From IMG/VR virus record IMGVR_UViG_3300034374_010596, positions 1 to 29,837 of that record: a stretch of 29,837 nucleotides of DNA; one strand, 5' to 3'. The first letter of the stretch is position 1; every line of letters begins with the position of its first letter. The DNA comes from a virus. A program made the position numbers and the translations under genes. The notes under the pieces are model-generated. The model was not told where the DNA came from, made no database searches, and saw nothing but the letters and a program-made list of their open reading frames with translations. Below, one piece after another: positions 53 to 25,785 of the stretch.

Positions 53-88
53 AATATAGGGGGTAAACGCGACTGCGTAAACCCCCTA
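53..88 (-). promoter_or_regulatory. Leftward promoter inside an inverted repeat
   Basis: On the minus strand a TTTACG hexamer (81-76), a 17-base spacer and TATATT (58-53) form a sigma70-like promoter facing the gene that starts at 12. It lies within the inverted pair TAGGGGGT-N16-ACCCCCTA, with arms at 81-88 and 57-64. The promoter at 14460-14488 has the same arms, the same 16-base spacing and the same 17-base hexamer spacing. This suggests a shared regulator rather than a terminator. The sequence can also fold as a hairpin, so termination of the gene ending at 110 is a secondary possibility. Confidence 0.6.
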
Positions 89-971: not shown

Positions 972-1007
972 TGTAAATCACCCCCTATTAGTGTCAAGTA
1001 CCCCCTA
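972..1007 (-). promoter_or_regulatory. Paired AATAGGGGGT repeats before the coiled-coil gene
   Basis: Two direct copies of AATAGGGGGT (minus strand; plus-strand ACCCCCTATT at 980-989 and 1000-1009) are exactly 20 bases apart, two helical turns. Each is followed two bases later by a -35-like hexamer: TTGACA (997-992) and TTTACA (77 bases counted as 977-972). No good -10 lies at the right distance, so an activated promoter or an operator is more likely than a constitutive promoter. The core matches the TAGGGGGT arms at 57-88 and 14453-14486. It would drive the gene starting at 940. Confidence 0.45.
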
Positions 1008-4781: not shown

Positions 4782-4946
4782 ATGGGAGATACGCAGATAA
4801 GCGTACGGCTACCGCAGGAGCAAGTGCGGGCGATCGACGCCTGGGTCGAGCAGATGCGACGAGACAACCCGGGGATAAAGATAAGCCGCAGCGACTACGT
4901 CCGTAGCGCCGTAGCGAGCATGCGGGAGAAGAGCACGGATGAGTAA
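4782..4946 (+). CDS. Ribbon-helix-helix DNA-binding regulator
   Basis: 54 residues. The opening GDTQISVRLPQEQVRAIDAW is a classic CopG/Arc-type ribbon-helix-helix start: a beta strand (TQISVRLP) that reads the major groove, then helix A. ISRSDYVRSAVASM forms helix B. The ATG at 4782 is preferred over the one at 4776 because GGAG lies six bases upstream of it. It overlaps the primase-polymerase start by eight bases, so the two are co-expressed. It probably dimerises and represses its own divergent promoter region, which carries tandem repeats, and thereby controls replication gene dosage. The operator assignment is inferred. Confidence 0.8.
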   Translation: MGDTQISVRLPQEQVRAIDAWVEQMRRDNPGIKISRSDYVRSAVASMREKSTDE

Positions 4947-8447: not shown

Positions 8448-8936
8448 TTAACTGGCCTCGAGCAGCGCGACTTCCTCGCGCTCCCAGACCTTCTGCTCGG
8501 CGTCACGTAGGTTGTCGACAACGAGCGCCTTGACGACGTCGTCTATCGTGCAGTCTCGAGCGAACGCCAGGTCCTCGAGCCTCTTTAGCACGCCGTCGGG
8601 GAGCACGATGCGCACCCCTGGGCCCTCCGGCAATACGACCTCAACGTTCGGGTCGAGCCGGTAGCCACGACCCCATATGGTCTCGAACACGGAGGGCATG
8701 CCGGCGTCGCGCACCTTCTTGCGTATCTTGCACACGAACACGTCGATGATCTTGAGCTCCGGCTCGTCCTGTCTGGCGTACAGGTCGAGGAGGAACGCCT
8801 CCTTGGTCGTGACGCGCGTGCTACCGTAGCGGCACAGGCTCCTGACCATGGTCGCCTCCTTGACCGTGAAGCGACACGTCCGCCCCTCCTCGTCGGAGAG
8901 CTCGTTGGCCGCGCTCAGGTAGAGCTTTGTCTTCAT
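8448..8936 (-). CDS. CtrA-like winged-helix regulator with C-terminal ribbon-helix-helix-like segment
   Basis: 162 residues from the ATG at 8936, which follows AAGGAGG; the frame stays open upstream without a site. Residues about 20-98 form an OmpR/PhoB-type winged helix. The segment DEPELKIIDVFVCKIRKKV and then ETIWGRGYRLDPN are nearly those of the Alphaproteobacteria cell-cycle regulator CtrA (as I recall it, DEPELKIIDVFICKLRKKL and ETVWGRGYVL). There is no receiver domain, so it cannot be controlled by phosphorylation. Residues about 110-145 (VRIVLPDGVLKRLEDLAFA then CTIDDVVKALVVDNL) look like a ribbon-helix-helix unit. It may compete with host CtrA at its sites or rewire phage promoters. 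It lies between the membrane protein and protease genes of the same operon. Confidence 0.75.
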   Translation of the reverse strand: MKTKLYLSAANELSDEEGRTCRFTVKEATMVRSLCRYGSTRVTTKEAFLLDLYARQDEPELKIIDVFVCKIRKKVRDAGMPSVFETIWGRGYRLDPNVEVVLPEGPGVRIVLPDGVLKRLEDLAFARDCTIDDVVKALVVDNLRDAEQKVWEREEVALLEAS

Positions 8937-8959
8937 CTGTCTTTCCTCCTTGTTGAACA

Positions 8960-9127
8960 TCAGAGCAGTCCTCGCACTAGAGCTATCAGGGGCAACACGA
9001 CCGTGAAGCCCCAGAAGGCGATCGAGTAGACGATCGCGATCCACGTCATGTTGCGGTCGAACCATGCAGCGATCGGCCCGGGCTCGTCGTACCACCCGCA
9101 CTCGGCCTTCTCGTATCCGCTAGCCAT
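8960..9127 (-). CDS. Small single-pass membrane protein
   Basis: 55 residues starting ATG GCT AGC at 9127 after GAGGAG. The N-terminal 25 residues are polar with several Trp and acidic residues (ASGYEKAECGWYDEPGPIA). Residues about 28-50 form one hydrophobic helix (WIAIVYSIAFWGFTVVLPLI), ending in ALVRGLL. The basic end suggests the C-terminus lies in the cytoplasm. It overlaps the end of the upstream gene by eight bases and precedes the CtrA-like regulator gene. Function unknown; a holin-like or exclusion role cannot be excluded, but nothing specific supports it. Confidence 0.7.
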   Translation of the reverse strand: MASGYEKAECGWYDEPGPIAAWFDRNMTWIAIVYSIAFWGFTVVLPLIALVRGLL

Positions 9128-11934: not shown

Positions 11935-12176
11935 AGCTCGCCCTCTCGCAGGTCTGTCACTTCGTCCTCGAAGAGGTCGTCGGTGTCGAAGGTCAGCTGT
12001 ACGGTGTCGGTCCCGTAGTTATAGACGCTGACCACGTACCCTTCAGTGTATTCGGCCGGGTTGGCCAGTGGGAGATCGTCAGGCAGTTCGCTCAATACCT
12101 GCATGAGCTCCCCTACCGTACGGGCGCGAGGGGTGCGAATATGCACCCGGTAGAACTTCCCTGGAATTTCGAACAT
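11931..12176 (-). CDS. Small hypothetical protein, first gene of the leftward accessory operon
   Basis: 81 residues from the ATG at 12176, preceded by AAGGAGACAGAC. The centre TVGELMQVLSELPDDLPLAN followed by YTEGYVVSVYNYG and an acidic end (DDLFEDEVTDLREGEL) matches a widespread kind of small phage protein with a helix then beta hairpin, of unknown function. Its stop overlaps the next gene. A promoter-like pair lies just upstream at 12206-12236, so transcription of the chain down to 7746 probably starts here. Confidence 0.7.
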   Translation of the reverse strand: MFEIPGKFYRVHIRTPRARTVGELMQVLSELPDDLPLANPAEYTEGYVVSVYNYGTDTVQLTFDTDDLFEDEVTDLREGEL

Positions 12177-12205: not shown

Positions 12206-12243
12206 CCTATATTGCGCGTATTGAGGGGAGAGTAAACCCCCTA
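12206..12243 (-). promoter_or_regulatory. Promoter-like pair with the TAGGGGGTTTAC element
   Basis: On the minus strand TAGGGGGTTTAC (12243-12232) places TTTACT as a -35 and, 19 bases on, TATAGG (12211-12206) as a -10. The same 12-bp element occurs at 88-77, 14386-14375 and 14453-14464. The 19-base spacing equals that of the leftward promoter at 14349-14379. It would drive the gene starting at 12176. The long spacer suggests help from an activator. Confidence 0.5.
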
Positions 12244-12280
12244 GAACTGCTATTCCCTCATTTATTTTGGAGCTCCGTAG

Positions 12281-12542
12281 GACCTTACAACCTGCCGGAG
12301 CTAGAAGTTCGTGCGACCTTACAACCTGGACGGTTTGAGGGCGCACGGGCTTTTTGTAGTGTTATCATAGACTTAGTAGCCAAATAGGACCTTACGACCT
12401 GAAAGCACTGTTTGTCGTTATGTGCATGTGCATGCGCACGCGTAGTCGTCATGTTTTGGGTTATAAGGTCATAAGGTCTTACGGAGATTGATAACTATTT
12501 GAATTTATTACATTTTTTCCGTGCAACCTTCTTACAACCTCC
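12281..12542. repeat. Iteron cluster (GACCTTACAACCTG)
   Basis: GACCTTACAACCTG occurs exactly at 12281-12294 and 12315-12328. One-base variant GACCTTACGACCTG is at 12388-12401. A related copy on the minus strand (GACCTTATGACCTT) is at 12478-12465, and a partial copy sharing CTTACAACCT is at 12531-12540. Each unit is itself a pair of ACCT half-sites eight bases apart. Such spacing fits a dimeric protein. Confidence 0.7.
12419..12444. other. 26-base alternating pyrimidine-purine tract
   Basis: From TATGTGCATGTG to GCGCACGCGTA every base alternates pyrimidine and purine without a break, the sequence requirement for left-handed Z-DNA under negative supercoiling. It lies between the third and fourth iteron copies and next to the AT-rich stretch. 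The composition (CA/TG and CG steps) is favourable; Z-DNA formation is inferred. Confidence 0.6.
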
Positions 12543-13277: not shown

Positions 13278-13453
13278 GAGTATCCCCTCTTCGGTTCGAC
13301 GTACTCGATCACGCGCTCGCAGTGACCGGTGGAGTGGCTGACCTCTACGGTCGGCATGGACGCCCAGGCGTCGAGGGCCTTCCACGTGACGATGAGGACC
13401 CACGGCAACGCCCCTAGCACGAACCCCGCCCGAATAGCGAACGACCAGCTCAT
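13232..13453 (-). CDS. Small membrane-anchored protein with periplasmic domain
   Basis: 73 residues. SWSFAIRAGFVLGALPWVLI and VTWK (about 2-25) form one N-terminal membrane anchor. The rest, VEVSHSTGHCERVIEYVEPK followed by GYSCENLPNKYDHVWVR, is a small soluble domain with two Cys that could form a disulfide in the periplasm. Similar S-T-x-x-C-V-x-V ... C-x-x-L-P-x-x-Y-x-x-V-W-V proteins occur in many phages without known function. It starts in an ATGA overlap with the previous gene and overlaps the lipoprotein hydrolase gene, a spanin-like arrangement, although the partner is an enzyme. Confidence 0.75.
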   Translation of the reverse strand: MSWSFAIRAGFVLGALPWVLIVTWKALDAWASMPTVEVSHSTGHCERVIEYVEPKRGYSCENLPNKYDHVWVR

Positions 13454-14086: not shown

Positions 14087-14323
14087 TTAGATCGAACAGT
14101 GTTGACGTATCTGTTGTTCGCTCACTTGACCGTGAGGCCAACGAGCGGACACTTCAGAGATGACGACGTCAGCGTCTTCACCGACGGCCTTGACGGCTTT
14201 CGGGAACCACATGTCGTCTTCGAGGGTGCCCTCGTCTTCCGACAGTAGGACTTCCTGATATAGGCCGACAAGTTTCTTGTGGCCGTCGCTGAGTTCCTCG
14301 TGGGCAATTACTGGGTCGAACAT
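14087..14323 (-). CDS. Small acidic hypothetical protein, first leftward early gene
   Basis: 78 residues from the ATG at 14323, preceded by GGAGACAGACAC; the frame also stays open upstream into the control region. FDPVIAHEELSDGHKKLVGL followed by an acidic YQEVLLSEDEGTLEDD stretch suggests a helical acidic protein. It is the first gene after a promoter-like pair with only about 20 bases of leader. Unknown function; position and size fit an early host-takeover protein. Confidence 0.7.
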   Translation of the reverse strand: MFDPVIAHEELSDGHKKLVGLYQEVLLSEDEGTLEDDMWFPKAVKAVGEDADVVISEVSARWPHGQVSEQQIRQHCSI

Positions 14324-14348
14324 GTGTCTGTCTCCGTGGTTGTTACCC

Positions 14349-14379
14349 CTTATATGCCGCAATAAGGGGTACCCGTAAA
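14349..14379 (-). promoter_or_regulatory. Leftward early promoter candidate
   Basis: TTTACG (14379-14374) and TATAAG (14354-14349) on the minus strand are 19 bases apart, with the -35 inside the TAGGGGGTTTAC element at 14386-14375. A separate inverted repeat, TACCCCTTAT/ATAAGGGGTA (14344-14353 and 14362-14371), covers the -10 and could be an operator. Transcription would start near 14342, about 20 bases before the ATG at 14323. Confidence 0.55.
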
Positions 14380-14464
14380 CCCCCTATTTGCGTTTTTCCC
14401 AACTTTTTTCCCGCTCTCTATAATAGGGGAAAAAAGTTGGGAAAAATGCAAATAGGGGGTTTAC
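14375..14464. repeat. Giant inverted repeat, 38-bp arms
   Basis: Positions 14375-14412 and 14427-14464 are inverted copies that match at 37 of 38 positions (the mismatch is a G-T pair at 14392/14447). They are separated by a 14-base loop that contains TATAAT (14419-14424). Each outer end carries the TAGGGGGTTTAC element, so the two arms present mirror-image -35 boxes to the divergent promoters. The inner part alternates T/A runs with CCC/GGG blocks. It could form a cruciform; it is also a natural two-way binding platform. Terminator use is unlikely because genes diverge from it. Confidence 0.85.
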
Positions 14465-14488
14465 ACGCCCGCAGTTACCCCCTATATT
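14460..14488 (+). promoter_or_regulatory. Rightward early promoter
   Basis: TTTACA (14460-14465), a 17-base spacer and TATATT (14483-14488) make the best promoter match in the window. The spacer ends ACCCCC, so TAGGGGGT and ACCCCCTA (14453-14460 and 14477-14484) flank it as inverted arms 16 bases apart, exactly as at 57-88. The start would be near 14495, 20 bases before the ATG at 14515. It probably drives the small genes before the packaging genes, and perhaps the late operon too. Confidence 0.75.
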
Positions 14489-14514
14489 GGCACCAACAAC
14501 CAAGGAGACAGACA

Positions 14515-14718
14515 ATGACGAACAATGATAAAGCCCTCGACGCCTTCCTCGCCAAGAAGGCTGAGATCGACGCACAGCTGAAGCGCCTGCAGGACCTGAG
14601 CGACAACATGTTCGAGGCGCACCCTGACGAAGTCAACTACGGTCACGTCGGCAGCCTCGGCTACATGGCCGAGAAGCTGAAGGAGGTCACCGACTTCATG
14701 TTCAACGAGGGAGAGTGA
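14515..14718 (+). CDS. Small helical protein, first rightward gene
   Basis: 67 residues starting at ATG 14515 after AAGGAGACAGACA. TNNDKALDAFLAKKAEIDAQ then LKRLQDLSDNMFEAHPDEV, and AEKLKEVTDFMFNEG at the end, suggest two helices with a coiled-coil tendency. There is no motif. It is the first gene behind the strong rightward promoter, with a short leader. Unknown family. The size, high charge and placement are typical of early phage proteins that bind a host target, but the target is not known. Confidence 0.75.
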   Translation: MTNNDKALDAFLAKKAEIDAQLKRLQDLSDNMFEAHPDEVNYGHVGSLGYMAEKLKEVTDFMFNEGE

Positions 14719-14721
14719 GCG

Positions 14722-15012
14722 ATGCCTGTCAACTCCCTCACACGCCGTGTCGCCGACGAGTTCAAGGACTGCATGGCTGAGACGCTCCAACCCGACGAGC
14801 TCCGAGCCATAGACGCCGAGAACCGCAAGCGATCGGACGCCACCTGTGCCTCACACGACTACTGCGACGCCAACATGGTGATGAACGAGGCCTTCGAGCG
14901 TCTCGAGCTAGAGGTGTTCGGCGACGACGGGATGTCCGAGGAGACCGTGACGCTGTGGAACGAAGCTTGGGACCTCGCACAGTCTGAGGGGTTCTACTCC
15001 CCACATGACTAG
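14722..15012 (+). CDS. Hypothetical phage protein
   Basis: 96 residues. The middle CASHDYCDANMVMNEAFERL followed by VTLWNEAWDLAQSEGF matches a group of small phage proteins that begin with a LTRxVADEF-type helix (here NSLTRRVADEFKDCM). Function unknown. The ATG lies three bases after the preceding stop, with GAGAGTGAGCG before it, and the gene end overlaps the glycosylase start by eight bases, so the three genes are coupled. The C-A-S-H-D-Y-C-D core holds two Cys and a His that could bind metal. Confidence 0.7.
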   Translation: MPVNSLTRRVADEFKDCMAETLQPDELRAIDAENRKRSDATCASHDYCDANMVMNEAFERLELEVFGDDGMSEETVTLWNEAWDLAQSEGFYSPHD

Positions 15013-15379
15013 GATCAACTGCGTCCCTCCCGAGGAGCTCACGCGGGAGCACCTCGTAGCCGAGTACCGCGAGCTCCCCCGCACGTTCAAGCTCGCCGTT
15101 GCGTGGCACGACCGTGACGGCCGCCTCGAGACGATCCCGCCGACCTATCGCCTCGGCACCGGACACGTCAAGTTCTTCTACGACAAGCTAGGCTACCTGC
15201 TCGACAGGCAGCTAGCCCTCATAGCCGAGATGCTGCGAAGGGGCTACTCCCCTCAACACACCGACCCGTACTCCCTAGTCGTCGACGTGCCCTCCTGTCT
15301 GCTCAACGACTGGGCACCGACGGACGAGGCCCTGGCCAGCAACCGAGAGCGTATAGCGGCTCGCCTGAGGGGCGACTGA
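15005..15379 (+). CDS. denV: Pyrimidine-dimer DNA glycosylase (T4 endonuclease V family)
   Basis: 124 residues. The first residues TRIN and then LTREHLVAEYRELPRTFKLA carry Thr2, the N-terminal nucleophile after Met removal, and Glu23, the catalytic acid, at exactly the positions known from T4 DenV. YRLGTGHVKFFYDKLGYLLD and RQLALIAEMLRRGY also align with it. The family cuts the glycosyl bond 5' of cyclobutane pyrimidine dimers and nicks the backbone, starting base-excision repair of UV damage. It is shorter than T4's 138 residues at the C-terminus. It is expressed with the small genes before the terminase. It likely reflects a host exposed to sunlight. Confidence 0.92.
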   Translation: MTRINCVPPEELTREHLVAEYRELPRTFKLAVAWHDRDGRLETIPPTYRLGTGHVKFFYDKLGYLLDRQLALIAEMLRRGYSPQHTDPYSLVVDVPSCLLNDWAPTDEALASNRERIAARLRGD

Positions 15380-25425: not shown

Positions 25426-25785
25426 ATGACGACCGAAAGACATAACAGGTACGAAGACCAGGTGAGATGGCGGAAGAACAACCCTATCAAGCACATGGTC
25501 ATTCGTGCTCGTTGTCGAGCGAGAGACAAGGGTATCGAGTTCTCAATCACACACGAAGACGTCGAGAAGCTCACGCATTGTCCTGTGTTTGGAACCGAAC
25601 TAAACTACGAGCCTCAACCGTCTGCGTTTAGCCACAACGCCGCATCGCTCGACAGGATAGACAACAGCAAGGGATACGTTCCAGGCAACGTGACGATCAT
25701 GAGCCTACGGGCAAACACGCTTAAGCGTGACGCGTCAGTAGAGGAGATAGAGAAGCTTCTCGAATGGATGAGGAGACAGGGCTAA
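25426..25785 (+). CDS. HNH homing-type endonuclease
   Basis: 119 residues. HCPVFGTELNYEPQ (about 46-59), HNAASLDRIDNSKGYVPGNV (about 65-84) and the following SLRANTLKRDAS segment match small free-standing HNH endonucleases of phages, whose D-R-I-D-x-x-K-G-Y-x-x-G-N-V core lies in the beta-beta-alpha-metal site. It is noticeably more AT-rich than its neighbours. It sits precisely between two neck genes (head closure and tail terminator) with tight junctions (3-base gap; TAATG overlap), the signature of intronless homing. It likely cuts related phages lacking it and spreads by repair. Confidence 0.85.
   Translation: MTTERHNRYEDQVRWRKNNPIKHMVIRARCRARDKGIEFSITHEDVEKLTHCPVFGTELNYEPQPSAFSHNAASLDRIDNSKGYVPGNVTIMSLRANTLKRDASVEEIEKLLEWMRRQG

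Follow-up and report, generated by a model that had tools for sequence, protein, structure and literature searches.

A G-block promoter element with fixed -10 spacing, widespread in viruses and resembling the T4 early promoter design

The 12-mer sites of the window and their surroundings

The window analysed here is a single virus record of 29,837 bases, whose proteins are related to those of the Rhodobacter phages RcSimone-Hastad and RcRudolph and, more distantly, to those of PaMx11-, MP1412- and CN2-like siphophages. It contains four exact copies of the 12-mer TAGGGGGTTTAC, at 88-77, 12243-12232 and 14386-14375 on the minus strand and at 14453-14464 on the plus strand, and none elsewhere in the record. 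These positions and strands agree with the initial annotation. The features of the four sites (P1 to P4) and of the loci discussed below are as follows.

53-88, minus strand: P1, with TAGGGGG at 88-82, -35 box TTTACG at 81-76, spacer of 17, -10 box TATATT at 58-53 and a second arm ACCCCCTA at 64-57
12-10, minus strand: ATG of the gene behind P1, which is read leftward and runs off the contig
980-1007, minus strand: P5-like region, in which TTGACA (997-992) separates two TAGGGGGT boxes lying in direct orientation at a distance of 20 bp, no 12-mer
8448-9101, minus strand: winged-helix regulator of the CtrA/OmpR type (Trans_reg_C, PF00486, phrog_31800)
12206-12243, minus strand: P2, with TAGGGGG at 12243-12237, -35 box TTTACT at 12236-12231, -10 box AATATA at 12213-12208 or TATAGG at 12211-12206, and the ATG at 12176
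14087-14323, minus strand: first gene behind P3, function not assigned
14349-14386, minus strand: P3, with TAGGGGG at 14386-14380, -35 box TTTACG at 14379-14374, -10 box CATATA at 14356-14351 or TATAAG at 14354-14349, and the ATG at 14323
14375-14464: inverted repeat of 38 bp (arms 14375-14412 and 14427-14464), with the A-rich upstream sequence, G block and -35 box common to P3 and P4
14453-14488, plus strand: P4, with TAGGGGG at 14453-14459, -35 box TTTACA at 14460-14465, spacer of 17, -10 box TATATT at 14483-14488, a second arm ACCCCCTA at 14477-14484 and the ATG at 14515
14515-14718, plus strand: first gene behind P4, phrog_14596, function not assigned

All four 12-mers are intergenic, in a window that is ~11% non-coding by the gene calls used here (p ~1e-4), and each promoter is followed by a gene start 25-45 bases beyond it. 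The general form is TTTAC-N18-[TAC]ATAT, which appears as TATAT at P1 and P4, AATAT at P2 and CATAT at P3. The -10 box of P1 and P4 is TATATT, exactly 17 from TTTACR, and the boxes of P2 and P3 are poor at that spacing, the best readings being AATATA and CATATA, respectively, at 17, or TATAGG and TATAAG at 19. The proposal of a -10-like hexamer at 17 or 19 was thus a fair description. A TGn motif is absent before the -10 box at all four promoters. The A-rich element upstream is GGGAAAAAAGTTGGGAAAAA at P3 and P4 and is weaker at P1 and P2. With regard to translation, the genes behind P1 to P4 have in common a ribosome-binding leader, GGAGACAGACA, before the start codon (for example at 14325-14344 and 14495-14514).

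The second inverted arm noted at two of the sites is present at P1 (88-57) and P4 (14453-14484), where TAGGGGGT-N16-ACCCCCTA forms 32-bp dyads. The bare 8-mer TAGGGGGT has 10 exact copies in the window, two of them within genes (12660 and 22808), so that it is not diagnostic by itself. In the P5-like region, which had been described as holding degenerate copies, boxes do occur, but only as two exact 8-mers in direct orientation. A terminator (1065-1042) lies directly upstream of this region and the gene at 940-110 downstream, and no good -10 box was recognised at 980-1007. The sequence GTTGGGAA, known to be shared between 44 and 14436 (both plus strand), has a further copy at 14396 on the minus strand. 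A separate feature of the window is a set of three 19-bp direct repeats of the AGGACCTTACAACCTG type at 12276-12401, within an AT-rich non-coding stretch of ~420 bp, possibly an origin or a control region of another kind.

It could be argued that such a word arises by chance or as an artefact of composition, and the frequency of the 8-mer would fit this view. However, the number of TAGGGGGTTTAC copies expected in the window under an order-3 Markov model of both strands is 0.0005, and no shuffled window gave 5 matches to TAGGGGGTTTAC at two mismatches. Together with the spacing control described below, these results refute chance, whose probability is negligible, and the earlier statement that four copies are far from random is well founded. 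A G-quadruplex was also considered and rejected, each site having a single G run.

P3 and P4 form the two ends of a single inverted repeat, the arms of which are 97% complementary around a 14-nt loop containing TATAAT, and the four 12-mer sites are therefore not fully independent. In addition, a nearly identical contig (G003) has the P3 cassette a third time, in front of a different gene. It may be supposed that the repeats arose through recent duplication of a single promoter cassette travelling with small genes and that the word is conserved by descent only. This is improbable, as the word recurs at fixed spacing and with different flanks in unrelated phages, and the copies in Roseobacter phage RDJL6 are unlike each other outside the motif. 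The spacing data across phages refute duplication as the sole explanation; duplication explains the spread of copies within the window phage, not the conservation of the word.

Fixed spacing and spread among viruses

The IMG/VR collection was scanned for the 12-mer followed by TATAW at nine spacings, 14 to 22, duplicates being removed and all figures referring to the matches listed. Among these, 81 of the 102 unique viral sites have N18 from TTTAC (17 from TTTACA), 12 have N17, and each of the other spacings accounts for at most 7. Of the 81 N18 sites listed, only 4 lie within a long ORF; the gene start, where one could be assigned, is mostly 20-50 nt downstream of the -10 box. In cellular genomes the same scan gave broadly spread spacings, with N18 in 23 of 113 and a bump at 15. 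This bump is probably due largely to one metagenome-assembled genome with many matching contigs. One Atribacteria genome of this kind (JASGLU; contigs L194, L222, L245 and others) has at least 10 contigs with the 12-mer, the TATAW spacing being 15 in the three whose spans were read, and the word may be a repeat of its own there.

In 28 viral contigs and RDJL6, the copies of GGGGTTTACA number as many as 16 in a contig and usually lie on the same strand, and the reversed control word gave one match in total across the same 29 records. Several of the carrier contigs are T4-like, as judged by a DNA polymerase of the gp43 type or by baseplate (hub) proteins. A blastn search of phage records with the consensus promoter returned mostly AT-rich noise, and pointed to the RDJL phages and to the T4-like phages SP18 and HMGUkp2, in which GGGGTTTAC has two and three copies, respectively. 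The word GGGGTTTAC was absent from T4, Syn9, KVP40 and HTVC008M, from which it follows that the G block is not needed for a promoter of the T4 early type. The G-block promoters are thus a class widespread in viruses, not a private operator of one phage. In a subset of them from AT-rich contigs (L097, L114, L125, L135 and similar), a common leader resembling GGGATAGAATACTAGTG was also seen right after the -10 box; no gene is evident there, and the leader may represent a small RNA or be structured.

Among the viral sequences compared, 145 promoters with a G block (G4 or more) were set against 325 other TTTACA promoters. The two profiles are alike from -21 to -6, with an A-rich stretch at -21 to -18 and TNTGG before the -10 box. 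They diverge over -41 to -36, in where the A-rich stretch lies, and in an excess of C at about -29 to -23. The A-rich upstream sequence is likewise found in the viral G-block set. Unlike the window promoters, the IMG/VR G-block set commonly has TGn before the -10 box (G 0.73 at -14). In a viral sample not selected for G, G4 or longer runs preceded TTTACA at spacing 17 in 7/137 cases, as against 1/129 before TTGACA and 1/94 at a wrong spacing; two viral scans at spacing 15 served as controls of this kind.

Genes behind the promoters and candidate regulators

The first gene behind P3 is 41-43% identical, and the first gene behind P4 41-51% identical, to RDJL6 and RDJL Phi 2 (RDJL2) genes behind the same promoter type. 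In RDJL6, the homologues of the genes at 13450 and 14515 face away from each other around the promoter region, as they do in the window. The element is thus borne out as a real, repeated promoter element upstream of genes, which lies outside the structural arm and recurs in relatives. That P4 might serve structural genes was considered and rejected, since the homologue of its first gene in RDJL6/RDJL2 is surrounded by small genes and lies apart from the structural genes. The contig G003 runs ~12 kb further into structural genes without an extra copy in that stretch, and the window itself is a 29.8-kb fragment, so the initial description of the element as genome-wide was overstated. The search for near relatives that span P1 and P2 gave only proteins of ~33% identity. 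Two further genes were noted in the window: a protein with a pyrimidine dimer DNA glycosylase domain at 15005-15379, two genes behind the first gene of P4, with homologues in several relatives, and an HNH/endonuclease VII-type gene at 25426-25785, within the structural gene block.

The 13450 homologue of RcSimone-Hastad and RcRudolph has a promoter with TTTACA, a 17-bp spacer, TAATCT and an A-rich upstream stretch, and no G block. The frame of the promoter is thus conserved, with the G block as one of its variable parts.

A plain core promoter does not account for the C run facing the G block or for the 32-bp dyads of P1 and P4. An alternative is that the G block, in many cases together with a C block facing it, serves as an operator that overlaps the -35 box of an otherwise ordinary promoter and at which a dimeric regulator, either a phage repressor or a host factor, would shut the promoters on or off. 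The dyads spanning both boxes at P1 and P4 favour such an operator, as do the two boxes at 980-1007, which are set apart from any TTTAC. An excess of CCCC downstream of the -35 box (17/145 G4+ promoters against 5/325 without G; Fisher p 6e-6) points in the same direction, and a C run opposite the Gs occurs in 13.3% against 1.8% in the broader set. In the siphovirus lineage, moreover, the genomes with the G block (the window, RDJL6 and RDJL2) encode the CtrA-like regulator, and those lacking the block do not. On the other hand, this protein has homologues only in RDJL6 and RDJL2 among the genomes tested, and it is missing from the T4-like contigs with 5-16 copies of the element. The spacing of the dyad arms is not constant (N8, N10 and N16), a C arm is lacking from most G-block promoters, and the 13450 homologue of RcSimone-Hastad and RcRudolph is preceded by a promoter that retains TTTACA and the A-rich stretch but has no Gs. 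Such an operator is therefore considered unlikely.

Three regulators were named as candidates in the initial annotation. Besides the CtrA-like protein at 8448, whose absence from the multi-copy T4-like carriers counts against it, the 13450 protein is also present in relatives without the G block, and the genomes compared contain no homologue of the ribbon-helix-helix (RHH) protein named at 4782 (gene 4779); none of the three is a cognate regulator shared by the carriers tested. In the claim of a phage early regulon, the promoter element is supported, but its control by a phage regulator is not supported as stated, since the module is found in many viruses and its distribution is matched by none of the regulators tested. 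It is still less probable that the G block and the opposing C block form a site for a host or phage factor on early promoters of unrelated aquatic phages; such a site would be a common control switch of early phage transcription, beyond a strong core promoter.

A G-block variant of the T4 early promoter and its relation to known systems

The preferred explanation, to which we assign a probability of about 0.72, is that TAGGGGGTTTAC is the upstream part of a strong sigma-70-type phage promoter, read by the host early in infection, and represents a G-block variant of the T4 early design. It builds on what is directly supported: the module, its fixed spacing, its wide viral spread and rarity at that spacing in cells, the linkage to the P3 and P4 genes, and the match to T4 outside the G block. 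In this reading the 12-mer spans -42 to -31 of a promoter made up, in order, of an A-rich upstream element, TAGGGGG, the -35 box TTTACA, 17 bp and a TATAAT-like -10 box. The five Gs are fused to TTTACA, the conserved T4 G at -36 being extended to 4-6 Gs. Host RNA polymerase alone may read the promoter directly, without a phage factor, and the modules expressed would be small and replication-side (early-type) genes. The G run, which separates the UP element from the -35 box, may help to seat the polymerase there, by which the phage could outcompete host promoters. Early firing of the G-block promoters is likely, judging from their likeness to T4 early promoters and from their gene content.

As a word of locked spacing that is common to T4-like environmental phages, Xiamenvirus phages and the present relative of Rhodobacter phages, the promoter element provides a simple marker of early-type transcription units in uncultured viruses, and points to where genes of host takeover may be sought. 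It also raises a question for RNA polymerase, namely the effect of a G run between the UP element and the -35 box. RDJL6 and RDJL Phi 2 are cultured, which makes the G-block promoters directly testable. In the open-access literature, no phage promoter report for the exact strings GGGGGTTTAC, GGGGTTTAC and GGGTTTACA was found among the matches listed, and nothing usable was found on RDJL promoters or marine early promoters; the class is apparently undescribed, as far as this literature shows.

In T4-type early promoters (Straboviridae), GTTTAC occupies -36 to -31, the UP region is A-rich and the -10 box, TATAAT, lies at 17; the host polymerase transcribes them immediately upon infection (PMC2988021, PMC1524935). 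The present element shares with them the GTTTAC -35 box, the A-rich UP element, the 17-bp spacer, the TATAAT-like -10 box and the occurrence of many copies before small genes. A GTTTAC-type -35 box is found at all four window sites, the A-rich UP element is present, and a -10 box lies about 17 bp downstream, as TATATT at P1 and P4 and in weaker form at P2 and P3, the spacing being locked in the viral matches listed. It differs in that the G at -36 is extended to G4-G6; a scan of T4 found 43 TTTAC promoters, 25 with a G before TTTAC and none with GGGG. Furthermore, the window promoters stand in a siphovirus-type genome and lack TG before the -10 box, and because of the missing TG they are classed as a variant of the T4 early design and not as members of it.

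On the E. coli model, host sigma-70 promoters that carry UP elements likewise have two hexamers at 17-bp spacing and A-rich DNA upstream, but the -35 box of the element is TTTACA instead of TTGACA, and TTGACA promoters of viral contigs have no G block. Counterparts are also found in the Roseobacter phages RDJL6 and RDJL Phi 2 (Xiamenvirus), where GAGGGGGTTTACAagCCC-N-TATCCT, identified from sequence in this analysis and not annotated in the record, stands before homologues of the P3 and P4 genes of the window. The copies in these phages differ from those of the window in their first base, which is mostly G or A instead of T, and in their -10 box, which is TATTCT or TATCCT.
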